Of a stretch of DNA of 64,000 bases, positions 2,456 through 62,500 are shown piece after piece (position 1 is the stretch's first letter; every line of letters starts with the position of its first letter). The DNA comes from Cheilinus undulatus (taxonomy: Eukaryota; Chordata; Actinopteri; Labriformes; Labridae), in assembly GCF_018320785.1 (NCBI RefSeq), contig NC_054877.1, forward strand, positions 24,286,329 through 24,350,328. Direction: 5' to 3'. Position numbers and translations under genes: made by a program. A model generated the notes under the pieces. It had not been told where the DNA came from. It ran no database searches and saw only the letters and a list, made by a program, of their open reading frames with translations.

Positions 2456-5400
2456 GTGTTTAAGGATAAGGTTTTGGGTTACTTCATGCGCAAGAAACGG
2501 CCACAGCGTTGTCAAAGTGACAATCTGGTAATTTAACTCTCACAATGCATCTGATTGAATGAATGGATGTGATTTGACATTCGATGAGCGCAGGAGCAAC
2601 TACGACAATAAAAAATGTCTGCTGATGCTGGCTGGAAATGCTTTTTAATAAACAGCACTAGAGAGAGAACAAAGCCTCAACACATTATGTAGGCATAAAT
2701 TTCAATTTCCAGTGCATGAACGATGCATTGTGCAGTAAAAGATAGTTATTAATTATACATAAACATTGTTTTTATTGCACATAATGAATGTTTGATTTGT
2801 GAATTTTTATTACACAGATTCAGTACGGGTTGTTTACACAGTGAATATTAAAAAGAAGCCGCACAAATCGTTCTCTATGATGACAAATATCTACAATAGT
2901 TTCAAGATAGAATGTAAATTAACATTAACAAGTGGAACTGACTTTATAGGCTTCCTTTTAACATTTGCTGTATTTCAAGTGTTTTGCCACTTGACTTCCC
3001 TTAAGCTAAAGGACATTGACATACAGCAGTAAATTGTGCACCCTACTCTTAATTAACTTTTTATCATGAATCAAAAAGTCCTTGACAGAGTTGATTTCAC
3101 CTCAGTTTTGATTATTTACACTCTATACAGAAGCTTCCTCACATCAACCTGCATTCACAGCTCACTCAGAGCAAGAGAAGCTGCCACTCTCTTGTCTTAC
3201 TGGTTAATATCTGACATGATGATCCAGTAAAACTCATAAAAGATCTGTACAAGAGAAGAGGGAAGAATAAGCAGAAAGCAGAACAAGATAAAGAGGTCTG
3301 GGGATTTTATTAACATTTCATGATCAACTCATTCTCTACCCCTTGAAGGCAATAAAACCCATTTAAAGTTCCAGATGAAAATGAGAGTAATATGAGGCAT
3401 TTCTGTTCTGCCCTACATCACTTCATTTTGTCGAGCCCAGCGGTTTAACACAGCAGGTCCAGAGGCACCTCCACTTCCCCTGCAGACGGTTATGTAAGCT
3501 TTACACTGAGCAGTTAAGGAATTATTTATAACTGAAATGTGTCTTCTTTATATCAGTAATCAGAGAATGCAGCACAGGCTGCTGAATCAAGCCTGAAGCG
3601 AAGGATGGAGAGGTCTGTTTTACAGGCTGCAGAGAGAGAAACATTACTCCTAACTTCTGTTGGAAAAAGTTCTTGTCTTCACAAGGCAAAAGGTGAACAC
3701 GTGTGTTGCAGAGCTATGACTGCAAACACAATTTTTGTTTGTGCAGAAAAAGCTTGTGAATTTCCTTTTAAAAGTGTCAAATCATAAACTGAGCACATAG
3801 AGCATTTATTTTTGACAACACAGATTTTTTCTAAAAAGTCCATATTTTCATATAACATTTTTTGATGTCCATGTTTGTTCTGTCATTAAGCTCCTATGAG
3901 AGGGTTTATGTAGTTATGAAACAAAACAAAAAAAAGGCTGCCTATGACATGATTGGTTTTTTTCTTTTTAGTCATTTTTGATGCTTGTGAACACTGCTGC
4001 AGGGTAGGCGTCAGACAAAGGGATTTCCTGCATGCTGCCAAAAAAGCGTTTTTAATTTTTTCTTCTGCCAAAGATTCTAAGTGATATAACTTTTTTTTAA
4101 AGGAAATCAGGATTTCATCAGAAAGCATGACTTGTGCATATACAGAGTAAGATCAGCAAAGAGATAGAGGGATTTGTTTTGTACACAAAGGGGCGCCAAA
4201 ACTGGCAGACACTTAAAGTTCTTCAATGGAGCTTTTTATTTTCTAAATTCACTATCTAAAGCTCTTGTGATATGTTGACACCAGGTTAGAGAACAAATTT
4301 AAATTTAAAACAAATTTAAATGAATATGAATGCCTCTATGTGACCTACAAAGGCAAACGAGGCCAACAGGGATAAGACTGATAATTTCTATTCACTGGTT
4401 GTTAATGCCTGTGACAGCTGTCAGCAGGTGGGTGTCACACAAAGAGGGTTGAAATTGCTGCAGAACCAGCCTTTAGGAGTGATATAATCTATTGGTAAAA
4501 GAAAGTCTGATTATTTTTTTCATCAAAGGACATGATCAGCAGAAAGATCTCAAAGGAGCTTTTATAAAGGGATGACCCCAAGTGTTAAAAAAAATGAAGC
4601 TAGTGTGCAAGAAACTGTTATCAGTTTATCATAGTTATCAGGTGGACCATGGTAGCTGTTTGTCTGGAGGCTTGAGGCCCACCTCAGCTTCTGCACTTTG
4701 TAGGCCAACCTAAAGTAGGGATCAGTACTAATACACACCTTAGGCCAGTTACACACTAGATGATTTTCAAATCTTAAACGATTTTAAAAATGTGGGAGAC
4801 CACTGACATAAGGACAAATTCAGTGTTTCAACTTATAATTCTCTGAGCAAATCTGGCCCAGAATCGGTCTACAAATCCTGTAGTGTGTGGCCAGCCTTAC
4901 CCCTACTTTTTGCGCATTCTTGTCCAGGGATTGGGTGTCCCAATTCTTGCTGGAAAGGAAAGATTGGGTAAACTGCTGGGGGTACATGACTTTTAAAATG
5001 GAGATATTCTGGAGGCACACTCCAAACTAAGTGTTATGGGAAATCTCCTAGAGCCTTGTGAATCATAAGTAAGATTTGAGAATACAACAAAAATCTGATT
5101 TTAATGTTATTTCAATGCATAATGGTCCATTTGTTTAGAACTAGTACAATTTCTTTGGGGAGATTTCATCACTTCACCTTGTATCTCTGTTCTCTAAGGA
5201 GAAAGGGGGCAATTAAAATCAGGGGGTAGGGGTAAAAGGTAAAATGGGACAGAGCCTACACTTGACAGCATTTCCAATATGGCATCTACCACTGATGGGC
5301 TTCCGAAGATGGTTTCAGAAACCAATGGGTGACATCTCTGAGACTACATCCATGTTTTAAACACTGTCCTTTTTATATTAAGTTAATATAACAGACATGA

Positions 5401-7708
5401 ACACGGCTTTCCTTCTAATGAAATTCAACTTTTAGATTTAAAAAGTCAAGCCTAACGGCCACTTCATCTTGTTCTTTTTAAGACTCTGGGACCACCAGTC
5501 ATGTCTCAAGTTCGAATGAAAGCTCAAAGCCACTAATCCCTCATTAAAGCTGACTGTAGGGGTAGAAACACTAACAAAGACTAAAAAATTTCTCTGTTCT
5601 GGTGCTGTTTTCATAAAAAGCATTAAGTCAGATTTTTGTAAAGGGGGATGATTCCTTTTGTCCCTGAGGACTTCGTATCTACTAGTTTGCATCCAGCTTT
5701 ATTGGCAGAATCTCAGAAATGCTCTGTTGTCTGTCACACAAGCCCAAGACTTTTTCCTCTCTAAAGTTCTCTTTGCATGCCAGATATTTTTCCTCAAATT
5801 GGTGAAAAGCCATGGGTTTGTCTCTGCATGCACACTGTGATCTTGCATGCTTGGTTGCTTCAGGTTCAGCAGTTTGTTTGATGGCTGAAGAAAATATAGA
5901 AAAGAAGAAATTTATTTTGTTTTGCAGAAGTGGAAATATGTTTAATAAGAAATGAAGCTCAGAGGGAAACTATTTTAGTTTTCAGAGGAGAATTTTTTGT
6001 GAATTTAAGCAGCAGTAGAGGAAGCATTTATTTAGTGGGATTTGATAGAGTGATGTGTTCTGTATTCTCCCCCTCTTCATGTTGTGTTCTTACAATAATC
6101 CATTCTTTTGTATTTCCTTTCTTTCATATCCAGTAACCATTTTTCAACTAGTCCATTGTCACATCTTTTCACAAACAACCTGACAGTAAAGTACAGTAAC
6201 ACACTGAGTGTTTCAGTAGATGCTATTTTAAGCCTGCAGTGTCTTTTATTGTCCTCCGTGATCATCGGCACTTCTGGATGACAGTTTTTGGCTTTCTTTT
6301 CCCCTCCGTATCAAAGACAGAAATATTTAGCAGCCATCTTCCTTTAGTATCTTAATCATATCATTATGGGAAAATGCTGTCTTGCAGTATCCCCCATAAG
6401 GTAAACTATGAGCATTTGCATTGTGTTTTATTTTCATTTCAGTCACCCTCACCCATCTTTCTTTTCATCATGTCTATTCCAGGAGTTTCCAGAGAACCCA
6501 ACCAGCCCTGGTGTCACGCCTAATCATGCCCCCAGGTAGCACACCCCACTGATAATAGATGCTCCCTCCCATGCTGTCCCTCTCTTTCATACATACCTGA
6601 ATCCATCTCATACATCATCTCCTCCGTAGCTGTAAATGATTCAGTTGGCTTTAGTCAACAAAAAAGAGGGGTGATTATCCGACTGCAGTGAGCATTTTTA
6701 TTTCTGCCTCAGTGTCAGGAAAGGTTGTGTGCTTCTCTATTTATCTGCACAGCAGAAGACATGAGTTGGTTGGATTCTCCCAGTGCATAAAGATTTGACT
6801 CTCTGCATTATGCAAAACTTGCTCTTTCCACAGAATAATAATGCTTTCTTTCCCATAGGATAAAGAGCAGTACTCCTGTGAGAACAGATAACGTATTTAT
6901 TGAATTGTTGTGCAAAAACCACAAGAGATCTATTTGTTCCTCTGCAGCAGAGAGGTCCATTTAGAGGCAACGCATTTGAGGCTGGTGCCAGATAACATCA
7001 CTAGATGCATTACTTTGTGATGTTATCGCAGGTCTGCATGCAGTGAGTTTGCACAGAACACAAAATGGTTCTTTGTCTGCTGGAATAGCCTTTTTTTGCC
7101 ATGGGAATACCAATGTGTGTTATCCACATATCAGCACTTAATCAGCAAGCATTCACTCACAAACGGGCTAATGCAGACATGTGGATGTATGGACTTCCAT
7201 ATCTTTGACAATCTAACATGCTAGTGTAAAAACAGGACTAAAAATATGCTGTTTTCTTTCTCTTCTCCCTCCTTTCATTCATCTTTTCCCCACCTTCTCC
7301 TGATTTTCTTTAAACTCTTCTCACTACCTGTGAAACATGCAATGTGGCTGATGCTGGATCCTCCAAATTTTTTGGTTTCATCACCCCATCATGGTCCACA
7401 TATGTTTCTGTCATTCACCGTCTTTTTGCCGTACATCCTATCTGTGTATGTGAGGCATTAATCACATATTTGTTTCCCATTTTTATTTTTTTCTTGTTTC
7501 TTCCACGTCCCTATGTTGTCCCCACTGTGGCTTATTTAATTGGTTCATCCCTATCATCACCTTCCCCATCCTCCCTCCCGTAACCCGTTTGAACTCGTCT
7601 CCCCTCCTCCCCCTCCCTCTGTTTTGCAGAGCACCTGTGACACCCTCCGGAGTCACTCGGACAGTCTCGGATTCACGCCGAACATGTTACCTCGTCACCC
7701 GACTCTAG
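2456..7708 (+). CDS. asic3: Acid-sensing ion channel, ASIC3-like, C-terminal exons only (partial)
   Basis: Seen: three terminal coding exons at 2456-2527, 6483-6535 and 7630-7708, with good AG acceptors and GT donors. The first starts VFKDKVLGYF, the stretch just after the second transmembrane helix of ASIC channels; from memory mammalian ASIC3 has VFRDKVLGYF. Joining all three gives a tail ending RTCYLVTRL and a TAG at 7706-7708, very close to the mammalian ASIC3 end (CYLVTQL), a C-terminal PDZ-binding motif. ASICs are proton-gated Na+ channels of the DEG/ENaC family in the plasma membrane of neurons. The ectodomain and both membrane helices lie upstream of the window. Neighbour cdk5 is convergent, as expected from human ASIC3-CDK5 linkage. 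Skipping the middle exon gives a different, ASIC1-like end at 7734. Teleost databases may call this gene asic1c or asic1-like. Confidence 0.85.
2528..6482 (+). other. asic3 intron, no other gene seen
   Basis: AT-rich intron. The small frames inside have no recognisable domain. At about 4745-4895 a short MITE-like unit has ends resembling CACACACTAGATGATTTT and its complement. Otherwise featureless to me. Confidence 0.5.
6483..6535 (+). CDS. asic3: asic3 53-nt frame-switching cassette exon
   Basis: Acceptor after a pyrimidine-rich tract ends at 6482; donor gtagca begins at 6536. The exon is entered in phase 0, encodes 17 residues starting EFPENPTSPG and leaves two bases (AG). Because 53 is not a multiple of 3, including it moves the last exon into the ASIC3-type frame, and skipping it leaves the ASIC1-type frame open. 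It corresponds in position to the proline-rich linker between KVLGYF and the PDZ-ligand tail in mammalian ASIC3. Whether it is alternative or constitutive cannot be seen without transcripts. Confidence 0.65.
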
Positions 7709-7734
7709 GCAACTTTGAGGAGTTTGCCTGTTGA
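7630..7734 (+). CDS. asic3: asic3 last exon, open in two frames
   Basis: Frame 0 (direct splice from 2527) reads 34 residues, STCDTLRSHS to GNFEEFAC, TGA at 7732-7734; it resembles the ASIC1 end (CESLRGH to GTFEDFTC). The other frame (after the 53-nt exon) reads APVTPSGVTRTVSDS then RRTCYLVTRL, TAG at 7706-7708, resembling the ASIC3 end. The overlap is about 76 bp. Both similarities are judged from memory of the human proteins. Confidence 0.7.
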   Translation, partial: STCDTLRSHSDSLGFTPNMLPRHPTLGNFEEFAC

Positions 7735-7841: not shown

Positions 7842-7847
7842 AATAAA
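7842..7847 (+). terminator. Candidate poly(A) signal of asic3
   Basis: AATAAA about 110 bases after the last asic3 stop codons, the first canonical hexamer downstream. It implies a short 3' UTR. Position-only inference. Confidence 0.5.
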
Positions 7848-24931: not shown

Positions 24932-25140
24932 TTTTTGGCCAGTACAGCCAGCCTTGACAAAGCCAGTAAACCAGTAGCAGAGAAAAAAGCCCCAAAATGG
25001 GGATAATAATCTACAGCTAGCTTTAGCTTATAGCTATCTGCTGTTGCTTTTACAGGTCGCTCTGCAGCCAAGCTTGGCTGGTCGGTCATCTAGAGGTGAA
25101 AAGAGGAACTGCAACGATCTGAACGCCCACAATTTCGAAG

Positions 25141-25660
25141 CATCTCACAAACATACCTTCCTGAGACCGTGCATGTACATATGGGAACATTATATTTTAG
25201 CTCTCCTACAACGGAATAATGATTTTTGCTTTGTTTTTCTTTTTTCTATAATTGCCAATTACGAAAAATTTGCTTTGAAAATTTCAGGAAAAAGTCCTGG
25301 CAATTTTCGGGAAATTTGCTTTGAAATTCTCAGTATTTTAATGGAAATTTGGAGTGTGTATTTGGATTTTTGGGGAAATTTGATTAGGAATGTAAGGAGG
25401 GGTGGAGAATATATTTTTCCATATTTGGAGATTTGATTTAAAAAATTATAGGGAAAATTTGATTTGCAATTTGGGGGATTTTCTTGTTATTTCTGAAGAA
25501 TTTACATTGGGTTTTTTTTGGGGGGGGGGGGGGGGGTGTAAATTGTTATTGGATTCATGATAGTTTCACTGAAAAGGTTTGGGAATATTTGATGAAATTT
25601 GTGGGTACCTTTAAGTTATTTCTTTAAGTTTTAAGGAATTTGTGTAGCTATTATACCGCA
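25141..25660. repeat. AT-rich repeat with AAATTTGCTTTGAAA units and a G17 run
   Basis: GAAAAATTTGCTTTGAAA and GGAAATTTGCTTTGAAA occur 46 bp apart near 25264 and 25310, followed by variants of GGGAAATTTG. A run of 17 G follows 8 T at 25520-25536. Similar wording returns near 48640-48850. No convincing gene. Confidence 0.4.
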
Positions 25661-25930
25661 CCTCAAATATACCATATACAGAACTGGTTCTTTGGACGCC
25701 CACTTCACAGCCTGTCTCTGACATCCCCTGTTATCTGGAACTTGGCCTTCAGTTTGGAGATAGTACTAGGGCTCACTCCAAACAATGCCACAACTTGGTT
25801 TTGCAGAACACCAGCTTGATGTTGCCCTATCGCACAGGCCCTATCCAGATCAGTCAAACATGGCATGCCGATTCTTCGAGCACACACCTACTGACCACTG
25901 TAGCAGGGCCCATGCTTTCCTGGGGGTACC
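25660..25930 (-). pseudogene. Transposase fragment, helix-turn-helix part (Tc1/IS630-like)
   Basis: On the - strand the peptide DLDRACAIGQHQAGVLQNQV continues as VALFGVSPSTISKLKAKF, a helix-turn-helix DNA-binding domain like that of Tc1/IS630 transposases. Only about 60 residues remain and the catalytic domain is missing. It lies between cdk5 and abcb8. Confidence 0.6.
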
Positions 25931-26192
25931 AGAAGCTCAAAACAAGAGTCAATAGCAATAGCAAAATAAGCTGTTTGGCATTGGCAGAGAAGATCTGGCA
26001 AATTTTTCATGGATACAACCCACATACTCAGCTCTGCTACTCATCCCACAAATGCATGTTCCTTACAAATATGATGCCACTTAAAAGGGAAATTAACAGT
26101 CTTTCCAATAGTATAAGATTTATGCCAAGAAGCACTGTTACAACAAATAGTCTACCAAAATCAAATTTCCTTACCGTTCATGCTAAGTTTTA

Positions 26193-26504
26193 CCCCTTAA
26201 AGCCTGTTGTATCATATTTGATACGTACTTTTATGATACCTCTATCTAATCAATATGATCATAAATTACAAAAAAAAAAAAAAAATCTGAATACAATCTG
26301 AAAAATGATGAAAACACCCTCAAGTGGATTATCTGTTACCAGAAACACCTAATGTGATATAAAAAATATATATGTTAAATTTTATGGAAATTTGGATTTT
26401 TTATTTTTTATTTTTTGGATTTCAGTATAAAGTGAAATAAACATTTCAGTTCCAAAAAAACAGATATTTTTTGGCTACAATTTGTGTTTTCAGGCTTTAA
26501 GGGG
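26193..26504. mobile_element. piggyBac-type MITE (copy 1)
   Basis: Inverted ends CCCCTTAAAGCCTG and CAGGCTTTAAGGGG, followed by TTAA at the right and a mutated TTTA at the left. AT-rich interior with GATTTTTTATTTTTTATTTT. Shares ends and interior words with 61763-62022. Confidence 0.7.
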
Positions 26505-34286: not shown

Positions 34287-37200
34287 ATGGCGAACTTTGA
34301 GGCTTACCAGGAGTATCAGAGAATTGAGGATTTCGAAGAGGACTCGCCACCAGGGGAGGAGGATTTGCTGGTGCATGTACCCGAAGGCCTGAAAGGTAAG
34401 TCCGTCATTGTAATTTAAGTAGAAATGGTGTAATTGAACTTACTCAGCATTTATGATTTTACCTAACAAGGCTGTAAAAAAATGAAGCAACTTGGCTTAA
34501 GCGTTCACATGTTTTTGTTTATTTTGCAGACTCATGGCATCATATCAAGAACCTGGATAACTTCTTCACGAGAATATCCTTTAAATAAAATTGTAGTTTG
34601 ATAGCAGTCCCCCATAGTAAACTGTTATAGATGTCACTGGCATCTCACCATGCTGGCACATTATCTAGTTCTTGATGTCGATTACAGTTATATTTAGAAT
34701 ACGTCGAATATTATGATGTTTACTTCTTGACTGACACGTGCTATTACATTACTACCTAATGGGTCAATGAAAAAAACACATTTTTAAAGTATGTTAATTG
34801 TATCTATATGGCACTTTTCACAGACTGAGGCCACAAAGTGCTGTACATCAACAAAGCAGCACTAAAAGCAGAACATACAGAGCATAAAATATGCCATAGT
34901 AAAGACAGAAAGAAAAGGGGAGATAAAGGGGGTCACATAGACCATGTTATAAAAAAATGACCAGGTACAACTACTGGCAAAACAAAGCAAAAGTCATTTA
35001 CAGTAAGCTGACATGGCAAATAATGCTATCCACAAGCCTGTCTGAACATGTTTGTTTTTAACAGTTTTTTAAAAGACTAGACTGAGTCTGAACAACGTAT
35101 CAGCATGGGCAGAGAGTTCCAGAGTTTTGGTGCTCCAGCCTTGAAGGCCTTCTAACCATCTGTTTTAAAATCTGTCTTTGATTCTGACAGCAGGTTTAGT
35201 GAGTTGGATCTCAGTGAACAGGTTGGCAAATATGGGTGGAAAAGTTCTTTTAAGTATACAAAGGCCTGACCATGAAGTGCTGTAAAAGTGAAGGTAGTGA
35301 TTGAGACCGTGTTTTTGATCTGGTGAGTACTCGTGCAGCTGCGTTCTGAATTAACTGCAATGTAATGTTTATGGCGGACACACTAAGTGAGATGAAGAGG
35401 CTGTTACAATAGTTAATGCAAGATGAGATAGGACTAGTGTAAAGGAATGTTATTTTTCATGTTTGTACAAAAACAATGTGCTATACTGAAGATTACGTAA
35501 GCTTTTTTGAGAGAACTCTAAAAACAGTCCAATCTTGAGGCTATGCTTAATGTTCTCAGTCACACTTTCCTTAACTAGCGTGTCCACATCTATCATTTTC
35601 ATCAGAAGAATGGCTTTGCTTGTATGATGCTGACAGAGTTCTTTGAACTTGTGTAAGTATTAAAAACATCCCACTGTTAAATCGTGACATCATTAGATAC
35701 ATGCATTGTATCATTAGATGAGAGACAGTGTTGTTTTTGTATTTATAAGGTTGAACACCCAGTTCCAGTTTCAACACAATGCTTATTGTCAGTATGACTC
35801 CGTCATGCCACTGTTAATTTTTCAGTTGTTATGACAGTCAGGTGTGCCTCAGGCTTTTCCATGAACATGTTCAGCCACATTACTCAAACTCTACTTGAAT
35901 CTTGTGAAATCATCTCTTCCTGTATGAAAAGATGTTTATTTTTTAGTTTTACAACTATCCTTTTATCAGAAAAATTACTTAACCCTGCTTCATTTCTTCT
36001 GAAATAAAACTTATTTATTGCCCATAACCACAACACCTCTTGGTTGTCGGTAAAAAATAATTTACAGGCATGCAACTGTAAGGTAATTTTTTGCTGCTAA
36101 GATGGCAATATGCCATATTGATATCTTTAAAATAGACTTCCTTAACGCATCATTAACAGTGACCAGCCTGATAACATATTTTATGATGGAACTGCAACTG
36201 ATCATCCTACCACAGCTTTATACATGCATCAGTTTTAAGTATATGTTGAGGTCACTGTCTGTGGCTTGATGGTTAGAAATGATCGCAGTCTCTTCCCTGA
36301 TGCAACATACAAGTGATATGCTCTTGATTGTTATATAAGTGTATTCTGTCTCTTTGTCTTTTACCTGTCATACAGTATGATACCTCATCTTTTTCTTCTT
36401 CTTTCCCCTCATGCCAACAGCCAGTTTTTGTTTGTTGTTACATTCACAACCTTCCTTGTCAACTGCGTGGAGTACGATGTCCTTTTTGCAAATAAACCAG
36501 TCAACCACACAGAGCCGGACCACAACCCCTTTAATAGGAGCAAGGTCACAATTCCTGACGCCATCCTACCAAGTCAGCAGTGTACCCAGAGGTAATCACG
36601 TTCAACATAACTCATGATAGAGAGCTTCAGTGTGGGAAATATTTGTTCATGAGGACATAGTCAAAAAGGCCTTCCAACCACATAAAGAGATGTTCCTGTT
36701 CCCTCATTCCAGCCACCCAGATTAGAGTCATTGTTCTCCAGCAGTCAAGGTCTTTGATATTATTAGAGCTCTTTTACAGCTGGGCCTTCAGAGGGATTTA
36801 ACATGCCTTGTTTAATAAACTTGCAATCAGACTTTCAAACTTAATTTCTGTGCTACACAAGGCTTCAAAGTGCAAAATAAATTCACAGGAAAAAAAGCAT
36901 CAAACAGAAGACTGTATGACTTTACCTTGTTGGTGTCTTAATGATAGCACACAAATGTCTTAATGGTTTCTAAACATTCAAAGAGGTAATTTGTCAGAAT
37001 TACTCATTTGAGTAAGAAGTGATGCCTCTTAAAAGGAAACACACAACTTACTCTGTTTTGCTGTTTATTTCCACCTGAGACTAGAGGCCTAGAGTTGCAA
37101 CATTCCTCTAACTGATGGTTACTCTGGGGTAGGTATTTGCGTACTGTGTTTAGACCAGCTTTTGGGAACAGGGCTGTGTAATTGATAGCCTCTGTGGGGT

Positions 37201-40200
37201 AAAACTGCCCAGCCGAGATTCTGACGAGTCGGCTGGGACAGCAAGCTGACAACCACATGACACCTCTCTAACTGGCTGCAGGGGACAGATCCCCTCCCTA
37301 CCCAACTCTATACCGTCATATTTTTTCCAAGAAGTAGCTGAGCATTTGATGTTTTCTCCAGATAGTTTAATAAGCCTGCCATTAATTGTTCTTGATTGTC
37401 AGTCTGGCTCAATAACCATTTATATCAAAGTCATGATATACAAATGCCTGGAATCCTAATTGGGAAACAGCTGGGTTAACAGTTTGAATCACTGCTGTCC
37501 TCCTCCAACCCTCAGTCTAATGTCATTTTTAAGCCAGAAGCTTGTCTCAAAGCATGCTTATATTTTGTTTATAAGCCAGTGTGTTCTTTGCTCTGTAATG
37601 TAATACTCATATGATTCCTTAATTTTAGAAAGCTGCCTCAGCCACAACCAGTAAATAGGTTTCACTGTAAAATATTGCAACATAATGTGTGGGCAACAAG
37701 TGCTGATTTTCCCATGCGTCTATCTTGTTTAAAGTTTAATACAAAGTTAAGAGGTTATTCACAATCTCATAAAAGGGGAGGGGGTTAATGTAACTTTATA
37801 TATTATGAATCCTTGATTTTATAAATACTCAGTCAAGTTTTTAAGACTTTTGTTTAGGGATGCAGGATGTTGTATTTCTACAAATAGCTGAAATGCCAAT
37901 ACCAGTGTAGAAACTTTTTTTTTTATTGTAAAGACCACATACCTCCTGTTCTTACCTATTTCTCTCATTGTAACAGTCTATTTAAAAAACAGACATAAAA
38001 CGAGGCAGACAACATTTGATTATGAGAAATTTATAAATTATTTTTCTAATATATACATTCAGCAATGAAAACCCAGGGAATATATGCTCTGAATTACATA
38101 ACATAATTTACTAAAGTAAGTCTTTATCAGTAAGAGTCAAACCAAGCTTTGTGTGCCTTTTTGAGAGCTACAGTTAAACTGCAGGTTCACAGGGTTTTTG
38201 CCTGAGACAATCCTGACAAAGTGCTAGAACCCCCCCCCCCCCATTTTTCTCAAAAGCAAAAGATAAATTAGCTATAGTTCAGGGCTCAGGCTTTTTTCCT
38301 TGGAACACACTTTAAAGTTTAAGGAATGAGGATGAAAAAAGAATCAAACTTCAGCTGAGATCTGTCTGTTGGTTCTGCTTGTAACTGCACAAACGTTTAT
38401 ATACCTTCTGTTACTATGTACAGCCAAAATATCAGTAGAAATATTCATATCTGCCAGTACTGATATTATACCAATAGTATTTTGAATTCCTGCTTTTGTT
38501 TGCTGTTGGCCTGCTACTCCAAAAATATCATATCGTGGCACTTGCCATAAAGATTTCTATGTATTTTTGAAGCAGTTTTGGCTGACATTTATGCATTTGC
38601 CCGTCTGTGAATGACTCCCTAACAGACGCTATAGCCAGCCATGTGTGAAATGCTCTTTGTTCATATGCAGGATTCAACAGAACAGCTGGATTATTTTCCT
38701 TCTCATCATGGCAGCCATCTTCTGGCTCTATCGACTTATTAAAGTCATTTGCAACATTTTGAGCTATTGGGAGATCAGGCAGTTCTACATCAAAGCACTG
38801 AAGATAAGAATGGTGAGTATTTAACCTCCTCACCTTATTATAACACACAGCACAATGTCTTTTAAATCAGCCCAGTCAATCCCTTTTGAATATGAATATG
38901 AAGATAAGCGTTCCATAGATGATGAGTCATCTGTCTCTGTAGCACAAATCTGAATTTTTTTCCTTCCTCCTTGTCCTAGGATGAACTATGCAACTTCACA
39001 TGGCAGGAAGTCCAGGACCGGCTCATCAGCCTGCAACGAGAGCAGCAAATGTGCATACACAAGAAAGAGCTGACAGAGCTCGACATCTATCACCGCATCC
39101 TGCGATTCAAGAACTACATGGTGGCCATGATAAACAAATCACTGCTGCCTGTGCAGCTGCAGCTTCCCCTGCTGGGCAATGTGGTGTTCCTCACCCAGGG
39201 CCTCAAGTACAACTTTGAGCTGATCCTTTTCTGGGGCCCCGGCTCTCTGTTTCAGAATAAATGGAATTTACACCCAAAGTACAAACGGAACGGAAACCGC
39301 CTAGAGCTGGCACAGAAACTCAGTAGAGTCATCCTGCTTATGGGTTTGGCCAACCTGCTACTGTGTCCATTCATCCTAGTGTGGCAGGTGCTGTACGCTT
39401 TCTTCAGCTATACTGAAATAATCAGGAGAGAACCTGGGAGTCTGGGTGCACGACGCTGGTCGCTGTATGGTCGTTTATACCTACGACATTTCAATGAGCT
39501 GGACCACGAGCTGCATGGACGATTAGGGCGTGCCTACAAACCAACATCCAAATACATGAACTCCTTCACATCACCGCTGCTGACAGTACTCGCTAAGAAT
39601 ATTGCATTCTTCTCAGGCTCAGTGTTGGCTGTGCTCATTGCACTGACAGTCTATGATGAGGATGTTCTGACAGTACAGCACATCCTGACTGCTATCACTG
39701 TGCTAGGGGTGGTTATCACAGTCACCAGGTGAGATTTTTCAGCCAGGCTTGTTATGGAGTCACTCAAACACTGCTATCACTAGGTGTAATAAGGCAGGAA
39801 CTTCTCTGTGATGTTCAATTTTTACTCTTGCTTTAAATTAGTGGTGAACAGAAATGACCACAGAGATAGTGTCTGTGCATTTTAGATTTAACTTTTTTTT
39901 ATTTTGATTATATTAAAGCTTTTTTAAGGTGTACCACAAATTCACTTGTTAATCTCTCAGTTATGAATGCAGGAAAATTTTGCGAGTGTCCTCCCCAGAT
40001 CCCCACCTTAATTTAGATTAGATAACAAATGTACTGTGTAAGATACCCTGTTTTGTAATTAATGTCATATATTCAGGTATAGTCCTGCTGTTAAAAAAAT
40101 AACACATTTTGTACCTTCCCAATGCCAGATCCTTCATCCCAGATGAGCATATGGTGTGGTGTCCGGAGCAGCTGCTGCAGTGTATGCTGGCACACATTCA

Positions 40201-43200
40201 CTACATGCCCGACCACTGGAGGGGAAATGCTAACAAGAGCGAGACCCGGGATGAGGTGGCACAGCTGTTCCAGTACAAAGCGGTGAGGAGTGGAGAAAGG
40301 GGATTGACAGGAACTCATTTTTCATAGTCAGACCAAAGTCAGGGATGAGTTTTCATTATAGAAGGTTACATTTTAACTTAACCAGCTGTTCAAATTAAGA
40401 CTGTGTGCCTATGGAATATGAATGAATTTTGTTTTTTAAGAATGTATCACCTTTTGTTTTTTTTTTTTTGTTTTTTTTTTCAAATCAGGTGTTCATCTTG
40501 GAGGAGTTGCTCAGTCCTATTGTCACCCCCTTCATTCTGATCTTCCTGCTGAGGAACAAGTCTCTAGAGATCATTGACTTCTTCAGGAACTTCACTGTGG
40601 ATGTGGTTGGAGTCGGAGACATCTGTTCCTTTGCTCAGATGGACATCAGGCGACATGGAAACCCAACGGTAAATTTTTGTTCCTTCTGTCACATAGAACA
40701 AGTTAATTCATTAGCTTTTAACAAACTAGAAGGACTTAGAGAAAGCAAAGTTCTACATGAGTATTTAAATTGGCAAAACAATCTTATTCCCTCAATCAAC
40801 ATGTATCTTTTGATTGTTTTTGCAGTGGATGTCTGAGGGCCAGACGGAGGCCTCTGTCTACCAACAGGCTGAAAATGGCAAGACAGAGCTGTCTCTCATG
40901 CATTTCACTATTAAGAACCCACGCTGGCAGCCACCTCAGGAGAGCTCAGTGTTTATCAGCCATCTAAAGGAAAAAGTGCATCACGACGCACAGGGTGGCC
41001 CCTCCACCCAGCTTCTGCTCTCTGAGGCTCCTCTCTGCACCTCGCTGCAGTCCAATGAGTCAGGAACGGTGGTAAGAAACTCTAACAATGTTGAAGACTA
41101 CTGCTGTTAATCCATAATTTTCTATGTTTTTTCTTTTAGAAAGTCCACCAATCATTTATTTTCCCTTATGCTCTTATTTACTTAATGGCTTTGTATTGAT
41201 TGTTGTTATATTTCCAGCCTGATAATTTGTTGGCCAGTGTCTTGGCCCATCCCATTCTCACTGCATCGGGACTACAAGGGCGAGACCATCGCTTCATCCC
41301 ACCAAGCACTGCTGCTTCTGCTGCTGCCAGTGTTCTGGCCTCATTGTCTACTTCTCAGCTTGCACATACCAGCCGAGGCCGCTCACATGGCCTGCTGCCA
41401 ACATCTCTACACCCCGAGAGCACCATGTACCGTAGTGATCGCACCATCATTGACAGGTAATGTTGTAATTATGTGAGTATGATAGCTTTTAAAACACCAT
41501 ACTGTCATACAGAGGCATGCTAATTGTAAACATTTTTCTCACAGTATGACATGTAGTGACATCCGCAGTCGAAGCAACGCTCTGCAATCAGAGTTTGCCT
41601 CAGCAGAGATGAGTCTCCATGCCATCTACATGCATGAGGTAATGTTTCAACCATGTACTATGGCAGCTTCTTTATTCAGCATAAATAGATCAGTCCTTTT
41701 CTTTGTTGCCTAGAATTGAAAGAAATGTTCCCCAGTGTATCTTTTTAAGTATCAGCCATGTACACACAGGCACCCTCTTTCAAGACTATTTTTGTTCAAC
41801 ACTGAAAGATTTTGATTGGTATAAGACTGTTTGGTATCACTCAAACCTTATACTTTTGCCCTGTTGTGTTGTATATTGAAAAAATGATTTCCCCCCCTGC
41901 AGCTCCACCAGCAAAGCTCCCACACACAAAGATCTTCAGGTCAATGGCAGAACCCAGTGCCAATGAGAGATCTGCACACAAATACTGGTAAATAAATGCA
42001 CTGCTTTTGAAACGCTAGCATTGTCTGACCTGTTGGAAAAAAAAAATCAGCTCTGTGTTCTGTTCATTTTGTGAAGATTGAGTGATGACTTTAAAACTTC
42101 TAAGAAAAAATGACATGAACCAGCAAATCAGTCATTTCTGTGTGATATGAAATACAGCCTGAATCTTAATTCCACACACTTTAATTACATACTGCAGTCA
42201 GATCACTTACCACAAATTGAGAAGGACTTCTGATGAAACTGAAAGAGATTTTTAAAGCAATTATGTCTGCATTAATATTTCTCAAACTTACACTCTAGTA
42301 ATGTGCACAGAAGCCAAATTTGCCCAGACAATTTGTCACAGTTACTGCAAGTACAAGTGCACTGTATGAACTACAATTTGTAGTGCATCAGTTTGTTTTT
42401 CTGTCATAAAAAAATAGATGGTGATGACAAAGATGAAAAGCTTTTTTAAGCATGTTACACTGATATATCCATCAACAACTGTAGAGTTTATGTGCTGGAG
42501 TTTTAGTATTTAAGACATAATGTGCTAAATCACGGGCTAAATCCTTCAGCTTTATAAGAATTTTCTCAAATTGTTATGTAAAACAATATACTAACAGGTT
42601 TTACTTCACATAGTCATGGACTAAAATGTAAAATTGCAAGGTGAATGATTTAAAAATACTGGTATTCAATGTATTGCAGTACGCTAGTTATGTTAACAAG
42701 ATGTATGCCCTAAGGACACTAGGACCTAGATGAACAGAAATTTTCTTTCCCTTTTGTCATCATCTTAGTTGTTAATGCCAATTTTAGTGTTTATTCGTCT
42801 ATCAAACATAGCTTTTACTGCCAATTCTTCACATATTTTAATCATTATTTCCAACATTATGGCCATATAGAAAATACATTTAAGATGGATTTATGGCAAG
42901 AAAAAAACATAAAGATATCTTAGACATTGCTCTGCTTGTTATCCTTCCTGCAACTTGATCTCCATCTTCACTCTTTGTGCATCTTCCTCCTTTCTATTTT
43001 TGCATCTCCTTATTCCCTCTCTCTCTAAATCTCCCTTCTTTCTCATTCTGCATCTCCCTCTTAACTCTCTCAATCAGAATGTCCCTCTTCTGTCTCTTTC
43101 TTCATCTTTCTGTTCTCTTTCACTCATTCTGCATCTCCCTCTTCTCTTCCTCTGCATCTTCCTTTTTTCTCTCTCTCTCTGCATCTCTTTTCTTTCTCAT

Positions 43201-54291: not shown

Positions 54292-56584
54292 GTGAATAAG
54301 TTATCATGTTGACAAATTACTGTAGCAACAAGTTAAACTTTTTTAATTTAAACGGGAAATTTTGCTGAAATTAAAGATATTTTTTGAAGGTTACATGGGT
54401 AACTTATGACAGAATTTAACGGCTGTAACACCTAACGTTTACAAATAGGCCTACAACGTCGAAGTATCGTTAGCTAGCTTGGCGTCTGTAGACTTTAGCT
54501 GCCAGTCAGTTACACCAAGGTTCTGCTTAAGTTATTTTATTGTAATGAACTTGTGTGCTTGAAATTTACTTTTTTGAACAGAAAATTACAATTTGAATTT
54601 CTGCTTAATTTTTAAGACGTCATAGTGAGCGTTTAGACAATAAACATGGCAAGAAATGAACTAAGTTTCCGAAGTGGGAGCTTTATCAAACAGCTGATGC
54701 CCCTTTCGCTTCTACAAATGGCAATGGACAGAGACAGGGCCTGACAGCTGAGGTTATTTTTGGGACAGGCAGTTCAAGCGACAGAGGTGACGAAGCTGGT
54801 AAATGTCACTCTTTGAAAGGCACATATCTGCTTCTATTTGACCTTGTTACATGTGGAATTAGTTTGTTGTTTTGTTATTAGCCTGCCTTCCGTTGAATTA
54901 TTATAGCCGCCTTGAAATATTGATAACTTTCTTAAGGGGAAAGACAAGAGTAGCCTATGACTAATAATACTTACTGTAACTGCCAGTCATAAATACGCCC
55001 ATCTTGACTGTGGGTTTATGTCTATTTTCATAGCTGAACGTATTTATAGAGTACATTTAACAAACTGTCACCTCTCACAAAGGGTTTGATGTATTTGATT
55101 GGGTTTCTTTGTAATGTAATATGCGCTAAAGTAGAAAATACCTGACCACTTTTTTTAACATAGTAAAGTTGTAGCCTTATTTGTTTGTTCAGACGAAAAA
55201 TAAATTGTTTTATACTCTACACTCACCACATGCAAATCTTTTATTAGGATTGTTATACAAACAAAAGTTTTTTAACCCTTTCGTCAATACTTTTGACAAT
55301 ATAAATTACTCTGGAAATGTTTACAGTGCTGATGTGGGGTAACATTTTTTCAGCACAACCTCAACTTTATGAAGTTAGGCTTTTTTTTTTTTATCTTTGA
55401 CTTACTGTATTAGATATAGGGACTCCAAAAACACATAAAAAACAAAAAATACTTTTAAAGATTGTTATTTAAAAGAATATACAGTGCTTAACAAATTTAT
55501 CAGACCACCCTAACCCTAACCAAAGTAAGGTTTATGCCACAGCTGCCCTAAATTAACAACACTGGTAATTACCAAAATCATTTTTTATGTTTCTGCAATG
55601 GTTAATACACCAATATGTAGAAGCTCTTTAACTGAAATGATGTGGAGAGCGCACTGAAAATGAAGAGTCCACATTAAAGCACTTCATGATGCTGGATGGT
55701 CTTTGAGACAAATATGACAGGTGGTCTAATAAATTTGTTAAGCACTGTATATATCCAAATATGATGAAGTTTTCATTTCAAGAGTTAGAAATTTGAAAAC
55801 TTACATATAAAAGAAGTGAAATTATGTATACCAAGCTAAAAATTAACATTTGTACATAGAATACATAGGCTATGTATCCTGAGGTGTGTTTTGTCCACTA
55901 ATCAATACCCCAGTTTAAAATGATTATTGCACTGAGATAAAGAGAGAACAAAAGACATTTTCTTTGCATTCAAAGACTGTGAGGGATTCCCAAACAGTGC
56001 AAATTAAACAAAAAGAAAAGATCTGTAAGTGAACCAAAATCAAGCTAAATATAAAAACATGCAATGATATACATATGTTTTTTTTTTTCCAATTTTACCT
56101 GTCCCACTGTAAAATAGTTCATGGAAACAATTTCAATGAGATATAAATTACAGGGACCACATTTTTACAGAATTAATGATTAGCTGATAGTAAAAATATA
56201 AGGAGCTTTTTCCTTTGAAAAGGGACATAGAATGCGGAAATTATGAAAAAAATATACACCATTCCTGTACAGTATAGACCACTGTCCCCATGTGTAAAAT
56301 TATATTTTATATCAAATTCAAATATTTCCTGTTCGAGTTGATATTTTGACATGAAACCAAATCTGAAAGGAGCTTAAAAATCACACTTTGTGCACAAAGT
56401 GATTGCAATGCAACATGTGGCTTCGATTGCATGCGTTCACGTGACAAAAATTGCGCATGATGATGTCACGCTGTTGTGATAGTGGACTCCTAAGGTTTAA
56501 TGTGACAACCTTTTAATGTTGAATGATTTGCTTGAGAGCCAATCTGGAACTGTAATATAGAAGTTAACTCTTCTTTGATTGCAG
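54292..56584 (+). other. Putative first intron of obscn
   Basis: If the donor at 54292 is right, this is intron 1, ending at the AG at 56583-56584. It holds the mariner MITE at 55481-55748 and otherwise AT-rich DNA. Confidence 0.35.
55481..55748. mobile_element. Tc1/mariner MITE, 268 bp
   Basis: Inverted ends ACAGTGCTTAACAAATTTAT and, from the other side, the same 20 bases, continuing CAGACCACC / TAGACCACC; about 28 of 29 match. TA on both sides. Contains CCCTAACCCTAACC near the left end. Very well preserved. Confidence 0.88.
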
Positions 56585-56593
56585 GTGCAAACA

Positions 56594-59500
56594 ATGGATC
56601 CAAACTTATTTGGAGGAGTCCCCAGGTTTCTCTCCCGACCAAAGGCGTTCTCAGTGTGTGCAGGCAAGGATGCCACACTGAGCTGCACTATTGTGGGCAG
56701 CCCAACCCCACTGATCACCTGGGAAAAGGAGAAACTAAAGCTAACATCTGGGGGGCGCTTTAAGACTGTGGAGGATGGGAATGTTTACCGCCTAACCATC
56801 TATGACTTAACACTGGAGGACAGTGGCCAGTACATGTGCCGGGCCAAAAACAATGTTGGGGAAGCTTATGCTGCTGTAACCCTCAAAGTGGCCCTGCCAA
56901 CAGAGATGGCTCAGAGGGCTCCTGCTTTCCTTGTTAAGCCTACCTCTTCACGTGTTGGCTTAGGAGGTGATGTTGTTTTCTTCTGCAAGGTTGTAGCTCA
57001 CCCTGATGCCAACTTTGATTGGGAGAAAGATGGGCGCTACCTTGGGGAGACTAACCGCATCAAAGTTGTTTCTGACAGTGATAGCAGCACCCTGAGGATC
57101 CAAAGTGTGCGCAACCTGGACAGTGGCACCTACACCTGCAGGGTCCAGAACAGTGTTGGCCGTGCACACGCTGCAGCAGCTCTTGTTGTAGATGCTCAAG
57201 ATTCTCGTCACCTGGCTGCAGACAAGAACACCTCCCTCCTTTCTCACCTACAAAAGCGTAAAGAAGAGATGAAGAAGGACATTTCCATCTACCGCACAGA
57301 GGAAGGCAGCTCCACTGTTACTTCATCCTCCACAACAAGCGTCAGAGATGGTTTGAGTCTGGAACATGAGCTGAGGGCGTCTGCCCTGGCAAAGCTGCCC
57401 AAAGGTGTGTTTACTCGTACCTGCACAGTGACTGAAGGCAAGCATGCCAAACTCAGCTGCTTTGTGACGGGTCACCCTAAACCCCACATTATCTGGAGAA
57501 AGGATGGAATGAATATCAGCGAGGGCCGCAGACATGTCATCTATGAGGACCAAGCTGAGAACTTCATCCTTAAGATCCTGTACTGCAAGCAGAGTGATAA
57601 TGGTCTCTACACCTGCAATGCCACCAATATGGCTGGGCAGACCTACAGTGCTGTGTTGGTAACAGTCAAAGGTAAGGCTGCCATGTCTTATATTTATTAT
57701 AATGCTTTATACATCACATACATATGTGTTAAGATGCATGTTGAAAAGAACTGGCTGGAGATAAGCTGCCATTAGAGACATTTTGGACACAGATTCAGTA
57801 CCTACAGCATGCAATGACATTATGAGAGCTGCTGCACCATCTTAAAACCAATATTTACAGCTAACTCCAAATTAGGGTTAGAGAGATTGGCCAGAAAGAT
57901 GCAATTATTTTCTTAATGTAAATGAATTCCACTGGGACAAAAATATTGTGTAAGTGTAAAGAGATGGACAGAGTTAATAAAAAATTGAAGTCTTTTACTG
58001 TTAATTTGTTAGCAAAGATAACAACTTTATTTACAGTTTATCCATAAATTCCGTTCACAATAAACACAAGTTAACCTTAGTGTTTAAGCTTCCAATGTTC
58101 CTTTCCTGGGCCATAAGTACTTTTTCTCTTCACTGTCACAGTTATATGCAAAACTGCTGTGTTTAAGTGTCATGCCAAGAGTAGCCACAATGTAGACATC
58201 CATCGGACCAGCAACAAACTAACAGCGACTTTTTGTCATTTAACTTACCATTTGAAGCTCTGTTATACTCTCTTGGTTGTAATAATCCAGCAAAACTGGT
58301 CCTGCTGCATCAGAAACCTTCCCCATGATCCAAATCCAGTGACAGATTTATACAACTTTACATCTATGGAGATCCATGGATTGCTTAAAATCCTCAAATA
58401 ATAGAAACTTGGTAAATAGTACTAGGGACACACAATATTGGATTTTTGCCACTATCCAATTTGCCGATATTTACAATACAATTGAAACCAATACTGATAC
58501 TAATACTGATATTCAAATGTAGTTTAGACCTGAAACGTCTGTCCTTAAAACACACACTTTGAAGTTTGAAGGTGTACAAATTAGCACATTTAAGCCCTCA
58601 AAACAAACTTTTAGGTTTCAGGAATGATGATAAATGAAGAAGATACTTCAGCTGATGTAGGTCGGCTGGTCCAGCCTCTAACTACACCAAACCTATTAGC
58701 CAATATTTTCAGCTGATATATGCAGATATTTAAAGGCAAAATGTTGGTTGTAAATATCAGCAGAAGTTTTCATATCTGCCAATACTGAGAATTCAATTTT
58801 AAAGCTAATATTTGCCAATACTGACATCTTACCAGTAATATTGTGCATCTCCATACAGTTCCTGTGTTTGCACTAGCCTAGTGGAGCTCCTGACATATGT
58901 AACTTCTCAAATATGATCATAGTTTGTGTTGTGCATCCTTTGGAGGGAATGAATCCTTTCCTCTACCTTGTAACACTGGGAATGTACAGATTTTAAACTC
59001 TGATGCTAATGCTACCAAGCTGTAATGGTCTACATTGGGTCATTACCATTGATTGATAAAAGATGATGATGCATAATAAACTTAGATGGTTGGATTGCTG
59101 TCCATAGGCTATAAGACTAGATAAAAGATCCAACTCAATGCCTAGGTGATTTTTTCTTTGCTTCCTGGTTGAATCATCTGGTAAGAGATTACATTCTCTG
59201 TTGATGTAATGAATTACACTTAACATTGCATAAATCATTCCATGAAATCCATGACACAATGTGTCACTGTGGAGAACATAATGTCAAAGTTACATTGGAT
59301 GAAGTGCTGTCGATAGAAACAGGTTTTGGGGTTAAAGGTCTGTGATGTTTTCTGGGCTTTTCTTTTGATGCTGACTGTATCTACAGTATGTAGGTAAAGC
59401 AGCATCAAAGTGCCAGCGGCTTTTTGACACATTCAGTAATGTTTCCACAGTACAAGAGGTGGTATGTTCTTGTTTAGGAAAAGAATTTAACAAAAAAGTG

Positions 59501-62500
59501 ACATTTAACAGAAGTTAAAGGTTTCATCAGTTTTCAAATTAATGTCCACAGCAAGTTTATTATAGTTAACTAAAACCAACTAAATAACTAAAACTAAAAT
59601 TCAAAAATCATTTTAGTTAACTGAAAAAAACGAAAACTAACTAAAACTGTTTCGTGCGTGTACAAAACTACATAACTAAAATAAAATAAAAACTGAGACA
59701 AAATAAACTTAGTTTTAGTCTTTGACACAATCAGACTGACTGGGGCCTACACCAGAGTCTGGGGGAGAGTAAAATTGCCTGATCTGATTGGTTAAGACTT
59801 CACAAAGTGGTAGTTTTATGTCTGGAGTTGTATTCAAACATCATCATTACGTAAATAAAATGATAAATGAAGAGAAGCCTGTTTGAGTATGGGTTTAAAA
59901 ATGTATGACACTCATTTAGCCCCTACATCTAGCTATAAAAAAACTAACACTAACACTAAAACTAATAAAAACTAAACTAAAACGAAGCATTTTTTGGGAA
60001 ATTGAAACTACACTAAACTAACAAACCAGCAGTAAAAACTAATAAAAACTAAACTGAAATCGAACACAGAAAGTGAAAACGAAATAAAAATAAAAACTAT
60101 CGAAAAATCCAAAGCTATTATAACCTTGGTCCACAGTAAACCTAAATCAAAAAACAACTAAAGCTGATGATTAGCAATTAATCGAGTTAAGTATTTGTGC
60201 CCAGCTCTGTTATTCTATTTCTTAATTTTTAGAAGTTCTCTATAATGTCTGCAACAGCCAGTGCAGAGACCTCAAACCAGTACCCTCTGAAGACATAAAT
60301 CTTCATGGTGTATATATTTTGAAGGCTTAGTATTACTTCGCTGTAACAGCTGGCTAGACACTGAAGCTTTTTTAATAAGCACTACTCAGACTGGAAAACA
60401 GAAATTTTGCTGGACTGTTATGCATGTATCATTAATATACAGTTTGTGCTGTACTGAATATTAGAACACCAGTAAGATATGAATAGCTATGTTGTTTGAG
60501 TAACTGTCTTGAGATAAATCAGTGCCTAACTTTAAAGGAACATGTCATCGCTCATAGGAAAAAGATGGTAACACACTCTTAATCTTGCTGGCTGCATTTC
60601 TGCAAGTGTTATCCAAATCACTTAACCAAAGCCTCATTTAACACTATCAAAATGCATGCGGCTGTTCACAACAAGGTTGAATTTGGCTCACCCTCTGCTG
60701 GAGGGTGTTGTGTTGCATCTATTTTCTGCTGGTGATGAGAAGTTCACAGTTGCTAAGATGGTGCCTCACCTACTGGAGCACATTTGCACTTTGGCTACTG
60801 TGACTTCTCTTGGGAGGAAACTGAAGCATTCATGATTTATTTTTGTTGTTACACTTCATTTGGTCCTATAATGAGGGCTGAACTATGGAGGTACCAGGTT
60901 TTGCTTGAAAACTGGTGCTGCCAGAGTTGCTGTTGGGTGGTAGTTTGGTTGACCTTTTACTGTTGTGTAACTAAGTGTCAGTTTTACAGTGATTAAACAG
61001 ACTACGGAATAGAGGAGATTGTGATAACATCCACTGAAGCACACAGTCACAGCAGCTCTGATGTACTTGTACAGCAACAAATATCAGAAAAACTGTTAAG
61101 GTCTTAGTTTAAACTAACCTCAACTAACCTTCTTAGTTCGCTTATAATCTAAGGGTTATTACACGGCACTCAGAGATGAAAAGTGGTGTTTTGGCAGAAA
61201 GGGCAGCAAGGTACATTCTAGACATGTAACTTATCAAAGCCTAGGACTAAATTAGAAGCCAAGGTTCACTTTAGGAGCCAAACTATATCAAGTAAGCAAG
61301 TAACCTAGTAAATATATTTGACTGCCAATCTGTAAACAGACCTCTGGTCCTGTGGGAAATATAATGAAGTTAATGCTAAAGATGTTGTAAAGGAAATTTG
61401 AAACTTTATGTTCTTTCAGTGAGTTTCTCAACCAGGTGGTGTTACCCATAACTCATAATGGAATTCTACATCTTTCAGCACTTGTAGATTTTATAGGCTG
61501 TGACTTTGCAGCAGAGCATGCACTTCATTCCTAAAGTTAAAACTGTTGGCTCAGATTCAAAGTATGGATACAGATACAGGATGAGACTATAACTGTCACT
61601 TATGCAGAGAAGCAGTTTGCTGTCTGCAGTCTCCATTGAAACAATTGGTGTAGTAAACACATTGTGACTTCAATTTTATATTAAAATCATGAAGACATCA
61701 ACAATTTTCAGCAGCATGGTTTGAGCCCATTGTATTTAGTATATTTTAGCTCATTAACTTAACCCCTTAAAGCCTGATAACTCAAATAATCGCCAGAAAA
61801 TTCTATTTTTTTTGGAACTGAGATGTTTATTTAACCCACTGAAATCCAAAAAAAAAAAAAAAGAAAGACTTACATGAAATTTCACACATTTTTTTTGTGT
61901 CATATTTGATGCATTAGGCATTTCTGGCAATTGATAATCCACTGGAGGGCATGTTATAATTTATCTGATTGTATTCAAAAGGTTACAAGCTTTACCTCTA
62001 AAGCATATCAAAAGTTTATGGGTTAATTTTTGTTTATTCGTAATACATGACATCATTAACAAATTTCTCTGTGGACATTAAAGGTCTTGTATTTCCCTTG
62101 GTTAATAGTGGACATCAGTGATAATTTTTGCAGCTATTTATAATTTTAGTCTCAGTCTTAGACTTTAGATGAAATGTCTTTTAGTTTTAGTCACATTTTA
62201 GTCATTCCTACCCTTTTTATTTTTAGTCTAGTTTTAGTCGAAGAAAACCCAAAAACATTTTAGTGTAGTTTTAGTCCATAAAAAGTCCTCATATTTTAGT
62301 CTTTACTTTTAATCCAACCTTTTTTTCAATTGTCTTAAACTGGTACCAAATCATGGTAGAGTATTCTATGCACTCTGCCAAACCTGGGGTCCCTTCTTTC
62401 TACAGCTGAGAGGCAAAATAGCTATAGATGCATTGTTTTTTGACAGATTTACCCACAGTTGAGAAATATCATGGATTTCGAATGTCTGATGAAAACAACA

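Follow-up and report, generated by a model that had tools for sequence, protein, structure and literature searches.

The 3′ end of an asic3-like gene of Cheilinus undulatus raises the question of whether one terminal exon can encode two different family tails, one of the ASIC1 type and one of the ASIC3 type, and whether the gene makes both. The gene lies on the + strand of contig C13, and coordinates given without a contig are positions in the window, i.e., the whole stretch of 64,000 nt that was analyzed. Directly upstream of the window, at C13:24277508-24286205, matches to the DEG/ENaC family PF00858 were found on the strand of the tail exons, the last profile position being 455 of 455. The membership in the ASIC family follows from these channel-body exons, which run on into the tail exons on the shared strand. 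The 3′ end comprises the following features:

2456..2527, + strand: exon e1, 72 nt, phase 0 at its end, encoding VFKDKVLGYFMRKKRPQRCQSDNL
6483..6535, + strand: cassette exon e2, 53 nt (2 mod 3), encoding EFPENPTSPGVTPNHAPR, with the final residue completed by the next exon
7628..7631, + strand: tandem acceptor AGAG, judged by translation of the alternative joins only
7630..7734, + strand: last exon in frame A, 105 nt or 35 codons including the stop, encoding STCDTLRSHSDSLGFTPNMLPRHPTLGNFEEFAC and then the stop, an ASIC1-type tail
7631..7708, + strand: last exon in frame B, 25 codons followed by TAG, encoding APVTPSGVTRTVSDSRRTCYLVTRL and then the stop, an ASIC3-type tail
7708..7734, + strand: stretch read in frame A only, GNFEEFAC and stop, which would be 3′UTR if frame B alone were used
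7842..7847, + strand: AATAAA, by its sequence motif a likely poly(A) signal

The product of e1 is the cytoplasmic start of the C-terminus, following the second transmembrane segment. The exons are bounded by the acceptors TTTAG/GTG (e1), TTCCAG/GAG (e2) and TTTGCAG/AGC (last exon) and by the donors CTG/GTAATT (e1) and CAG/GTAGCA (e2), the slash marking the exon border. As e2 is 2 mod 3, its inclusion or skipping sets the frame of the last exon: with e2 skipped, e1 joined to the last exon reads ...CQSDNL-STCDTLRSHSDSLGFTPNMLPRHPTLGNFEEFAC up to the frame-A stop, and with e2 included the product reads ...EFPENPTSPGVTPNHAPRAPVTPSGVTRTVSDSRRTCYLVTRL up to the frame-B stop. The third frame of the exon is interrupted by stops. 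That the last exon is open in two frames had been noticed in an earlier note on this DNA, and translation confirms it together with the exon bounds given there. The arrangement is that of dual coding, a 53-nt exon that is not a multiple of three preceding a terminal exon in which both frames are open to a stop. The AATAAA at 7842 makes 7630 the likely start of the terminal exon, and since both stops lie in the exon carrying this motif, neither isoform would be expected to trigger nonsense-mediated decay.

Frame A is the ordinary tail of the family. In a search against the 177,635 distinct sequences of solved structures, e1 joined to frame A had four matches at E<=10, all of them ASIC1 (E 3.2e-4 to 8.6e-4) and all aligned through the final residue of frame A. 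A search of the own genome with the frame-A tail returned three places, namely this gene, asic1 on C3 and asic2 on C21, the agreement with the own asic2 tail being 6 of 26 residues. The end GNFEEFAC with its stop is ASIC1-like at 6 of 9 positions, and none of 300,000 random 27-mers of 3′-flank composition scored as high.

Frame B, entered via e2, reads ...VTRTVSDSRRTCYLVTRL up to the stop and is a tail of the ASIC3 type. For mammalian ASIC3 the last eight residues are given as TCYLVTQL in the accessible parts of two sources (PMC8555555, PMC9576141). The fish frame B ends in TCYLVTRL, identical to the published end at seven of eight residues and with the stop at the identical position, and this end is like a class I PDZ ligand. 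A comparison of 25 C-terminal residues with human ASIC3, a reference of which the last eight are confirmed from print and the remaining letters provisional, gives 15 identities (16 of 26 counting the stop). The match of 14 of 21 positions put forward in the earlier note agrees with this comparison over the last 21 residues of the provisional human sequence. Frame B alone had no match among solved structures in a set of chains of at least 20 residues.

Two overlapping frames are not independent, and each may force something on the other. The protein of one frame was therefore held fixed while synonymous codons were drawn 100,000 times, either uniformly or weighted by codon usage as counted in these genes (1,414 codons), and the other frame was scored. 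With A fixed, 52-67% of recodings left frame B open for 25 codons, and with B fixed, 34-40% left frame A open. Double openness as evidence in itself was rejected on these figures, being common by chance, so that the case rests on the likeness of each frame to its family. With A fixed, frame B equalled the match to the published TCYLVTQL plus stop in 9 of 100,000 recodings and came as near to the 26 partly provisional human ASIC3 positions in 2 (uniform) and 8 (codon usage) of 100,000; the 17 upstream residues of frame B taken alone were reached in 0.3-2.3% of draws. With B fixed, frame A was as near to ASIC1 in 62, 95 and 90 of 100,000 draws and as near to the own asic2 in 275 of 100,000, and by the weaker measure of plain identity it was reached in 2.2-3.1%. 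The claim that both matches are too good for chance holds for the family likeness of each frame, which exceeds the recoding expectation. Neither frame appears to be a mere shadow of the other, each being closer to its family than the other frame forces, with conservation judged in one fish genome against its paralogues and mammalian references.

PF00858 matches mark five ASIC genes in the genome, on C13 (this gene), C3, C21, C15 and C11, with labels assigned by their likeness to human proteins, some of these being provisional sequences. For three of the four other genes the last exon was located, and all three are open in frame A:

C3:42144280-42144369: last exon of asic1, frame A ending in ...NMLPHHPGQGNFEDFTC and stop (...FEDFTC)
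C21: last exon of asic2, frame A ending in ...TTLGTLEEIAC and stop
C15: last exon of asic4, located by a motif script, frame A reading ...NTILPNHHH...FEDFAC and stop

For the asic1-like gene on C11, no last exon was found on the minus strand of 34796001-34906000, which covers the 100 kb or so that follow its e1-like exon, and the tail comparisons leave this gene out. Read in frame B, the asic1 last exon gives ...ATCYLITQARATLK..., which contains ATCYLITQ and has no stop inside the coding part; a shift by one base turns NMLP.HP into TCYL.TQ. In asic2 and asic4 nothing like TCYL.TQ was found in any frame, with best scores of 4 and 5 as against 32 for asic1 and 45 for this gene. The ASIC3 tail thus looks like the ancestral tail shifted by one base, an origin already proposed in the earlier note and now backed by the asic1 frame B and by the frame-A tails of asic1, asic2 and asic4. 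From these comparisons we infer that, with a non-triplet exon at hand, overprinting of the ancestral tail exon may have given rise to the ASIC3 tail. The asic1 frame B is nearer to TCYLVTQL than the asic1 protein demands (21 of 20,000 recodings) and has no known product, so that nucleotide constraint or inheritance may account for some of the signal in frame B. General nucleotide similarity is no explanation, as in the channel body the wobble bases of this gene and asic1 agree in 103 of 220 same-residue codons. The likeness would then reflect either constraint at the nucleotide level, or a dual reading older than the gene split, or luck.

Between the cassette exon (6483-6535, SPGVTPNHAPR) and frame A of the last exon (7641-7687, SLGFTPNMLPR) there is a weak resemblance, of a degree reached in 0.3-0.7% of protein shuffles and 1.8% of nucleotide shuffles, and e2 may have originated as an incomplete duplicate of the tail exon. 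Among the best nine matches of a tblastn search (E<=200), nothing convincing as an e2-like exon was found in the other fetched ASIC loci.

The label asic3 fits the 3′ end, and the channel body, which groups weakly with asic1, speaks against it. Exon e1 matches provisional human ASIC3 at 56% (E 0.006) and has no match to provisional human ASIC1 at E<=1, and one of three upstream first exons is nearer to ASIC3 (47% vs 37%). Over 164 columns, identity of the body is 82.3% with human ASIC1 and 61.6% with human ASIC3, both references being provisional. In a tree of seven sequences, built on the columns present in each of them (109 of 273 dropped) and with one copy of a duplicated exon (the second omitted), it falls with asic1 at weak support, human ASIC3 forming a long branch. 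Some 31 kb further downstream there is an ATG9 gene, which we take to fit human ASIC3 (ATG9B) and human ASIC4 (ATG9A) alike. The orthology to ASIC3 would be based on the 3′ end, together with a single first exon and the ATG9 neighbour, and "asic3-like" is the safest label. In zebrafish, zASIC1.3 is described, in the accessible part of the source, as a paralogue of zASIC1.1 (PMC8388743).

The remainder of the locus has features of its own. One downstream exon set is preceded, upstream of the window, by a choice of three first exons (C13 near 24128488, 24246478 and 24272008); one is closest to ASIC1a, one to ASIC3 and the third, with a tentative start codon, is of an ASIC2b-like type, and they share a common end point before GT. 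Also upstream, a channel-body exon is present in two tandem copies (C13:24280175-24280302 and 24282699-24282826), both of 128 nt with AG/GT at the ends and with identity at 34 of 43 residues. Their length is 2 mod 3, so that inclusion of both or neither breaks the frame and the copies look mutually exclusive. Each of the other four ASIC genes has a single copy of this exon among the best candidates listed in a family search. The locus may be combinatorial, given its three first exons, its two body-exon copies and its two tails. The intron before e1 carries at about 60-1130 a possible Tc1/mariner-like transposon relic, as judged by eye, and two long open frames at 24978-25433 (152 aa) and 25648-26298 (217 aa) have no Pfam match. 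The ATG9 autophagy gene, mostly of large exons, occupies 38980-40833 with a weak piece below the cut-off at 36317-36592, and a second ATG9 gene lies on C18. At 56579-63634, large exons encode repeated immunoglobulin I-set domains, possibly of a muscle Ig-repeat protein such as SPEG, which we place in the human ASIC4 neighbourhood. The ATG9 gene and the I-set gene were considered as a synteny proof of ASIC3 and dropped, as both also fit the human ASIC4 neighbourhood.

The sequence comparisons point to an asic3-like 3′ end with a dual-coding terminal exon from which both tails are probably made by skipping or inclusion of e2. With e2 skipped, the last exon would follow e1 in the ancestral frame A, giving the ASIC1-type tail ending in FEEFAC; with e2 included, it would be shifted to frame B, giving the ASIC3-type tail ending in VTRL. 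The earlier proposal that the gene keeps both tails stands as far as the retention of both readings is concerned, at the level of sequence comparison by the recoding tests; the making of both mRNAs is presumed on top of it. Scored by textbook frequencies, the e2 donor CAG/GTAGCA reaches 0.38 and the e1 donor 2.56, while three other donors of the gene lie lower (-0.25 to -1.69), and the low e2 score suits an optional exon and proves nothing.

A gene that uses frame A alone would be an asic1-like channel with an ordinary tail, the ASIC3 tail being derived from the same sequence and e2 being a decoy or a rare exon. The weak grouping of the body with asic1, the ATCYLITQ in an asic1 frame B without known product and the low score of the e2 donor as compared with e1 would suit such a gene, which we nevertheless regard as unlikely, since the frame-B stop lies at the ASIC3 position, the match to TCYLVTQL plus stop goes beyond frame-A forcing (9 of 100,000), e2 is open in the right phase and other donors of the gene score below its donor. 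Exclusive use of frame B, with e2 constitutive as in the main mammalian ASIC3, agrees with frame B being the main known mammalian ASIC3 form and with the usable splice signals of e2. Frame A would then be a relic, and this we judge very unlikely: a relic should have decayed beyond the frame-B stop, but frame A runs uninterrupted to a stop where the family has it, and the nine codons that follow the frame-B stop are ASIC1-like (0 of 300,000 random 27-mers).

Both tails could also be made from a constitutive e2 if the tandem acceptor AGAG picked the frame, with joining at 7630 giving frame B and joining at 7632, after e2, giving frame A. The translation of e1 and e2 joined at 7632 indeed restores frame A and is open to its stop, yet this route is given very little weight. 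The first codon AGC (Ser) aligns place for place with the AGT serine of asic2, so that the second AG is explained by coding; the exons of the asic1 gene allow direct joining of e1 to the last exon; and e1 alone joined at 7632 yields HL and a stop only. No more credible is an element at the RNA level, e.g., a splicing enhancer or a protein-binding site, under which the NMLPRHP stretch of both asic1 and this gene would be constrained, with the frame-B conservation as a by-product. The unexpected ASIC3-likeness of the asic1 frame B (21 of 20,000) speaks for it, but the in-place frame-B stop, the open e2 and the similarity to provisional human ASIC3 in the upstream part of frame B (0.3-2.3%) are left unexplained, and the body wobble agreement as well as an Rfam scan of the window (0 matches) argue against it. 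A tRNA scan of the window also gave 0 matches. A rather doubtful extension of the e2-dependent switch is that the two-frame tail exon predates the ASIC1/ASIC3 split: a vertebrate ancestor would already have switched between PICK1-type and class I PDZ tails, of which asic1 kept frame A only and mammalian ASIC3 mainly frame B, this fish gene having kept the whole switch.

What the e2-dependent choice of tail would mean for the channel depends on the partners of the tails. According to the accessible part of one source, the C-terminal end of ASIC3 is a docking site that affects surface expression and current size (PMC8555555). There, PICK1 is described to bind the distal C-termini of mammalian ASIC1 and ASIC2, not that of ASIC3, CIPP to bind ASIC3, not ASIC1a or 2a, and PSD-95 to bind ASIC3 and 2a, not ASIC1 (PMC8555555). 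Further partners of the ASIC3 end are Lin-7b and NHERF, the former also raising the ASIC1a current by a mechanism that was not studied, and stomatin requires TCYLVTQL (PMC8555555). By analogy, we infer that the fish tails may bind the partners of the mammalian tails, i.e., PICK1 in frame A and PSD-95, Lin-7b, NHERF, CIPP and stomatin in frame B. The suggestion of a PDZ ligand switched on and off gives the wrong picture, as by its end frame A belongs with ASIC1 and ASIC2, whose mammalian forms are PICK1 binders, and the switch would be a swap of partners instead of a loss of ligand. With both mRNAs made, PICK1-type binding would be exchanged for binding of the PSD-95/Lin-7b/NHERF/CIPP/stomatin type and the pore would be unchanged. 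If this is true, the scaffold partners of the fish channel change by splicing at a constant pore, the ASIC3 ligand was born by reading an ASIC1/2/4-type tail exon one base over and not by substitution, and a living gene holds both states, a datable and testable case of vertebrate overprinting inside an ion channel.

Alternative C-termini are known from human ASIC3. Human, not rat, ASIC3 is reported to have three C-terminal splice variants (PMC7801124, PMC9612379), with hASIC3a as main form and c also clearly detected (PMC9612379), hASIC3a and b differing in the last 30 residues (PMC5893604), and, as far as the accessible text of a further source goes, little being known about hASIC3b and c (PMC8484650). 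As in this human system, different C-termini would come from one ASIC3 gene by splicing; unlike there, both tails of the fish gene keep a family-like end. The variant hASIC3c presumably arises by skipping of an exon homologous to e2, and if the fish switch is real, an ancient switch may have left its remnants in the human variants ASIC3b and c. Isoform choice inside one ASIC gene also underlies ASIC1a/1b and ASIC2a/2b, which differ in the N-terminal part of the channel, whereas the fish switch would alter the cytoplasmic tail only, by frame. With the PICK1-binding tails of ASIC1 and ASIC2 the fish gene shares frame A, which aligns to the last residue of ASIC1 and with the own asic2; in contrast to these, such a tail is one of two alternatives in the fish gene and its PICK1 binding is putative. 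Among the matches listed in a literature search, with most subscription papers outside its range, there was no ASIC exon read in two frames. Dual-coding isoforms by non-triplet alternative splicing were surveyed in C. elegans and human, and the words "ASIC" and "PDZ" are absent from the main text of that survey as far as it is accessible (PMC13247117). As in the cases given there, a non-triplet exon decides which downstream frame is read, and, unlike in them, the two readings in the fish gene are those of the tails of two different paralogues, with an older frame that is distinguishable from the newer one. Dual coding by non-triplet splicing is thus known already, and an ASIC exon that appears to carry the tails of two paralogues is what would be new.
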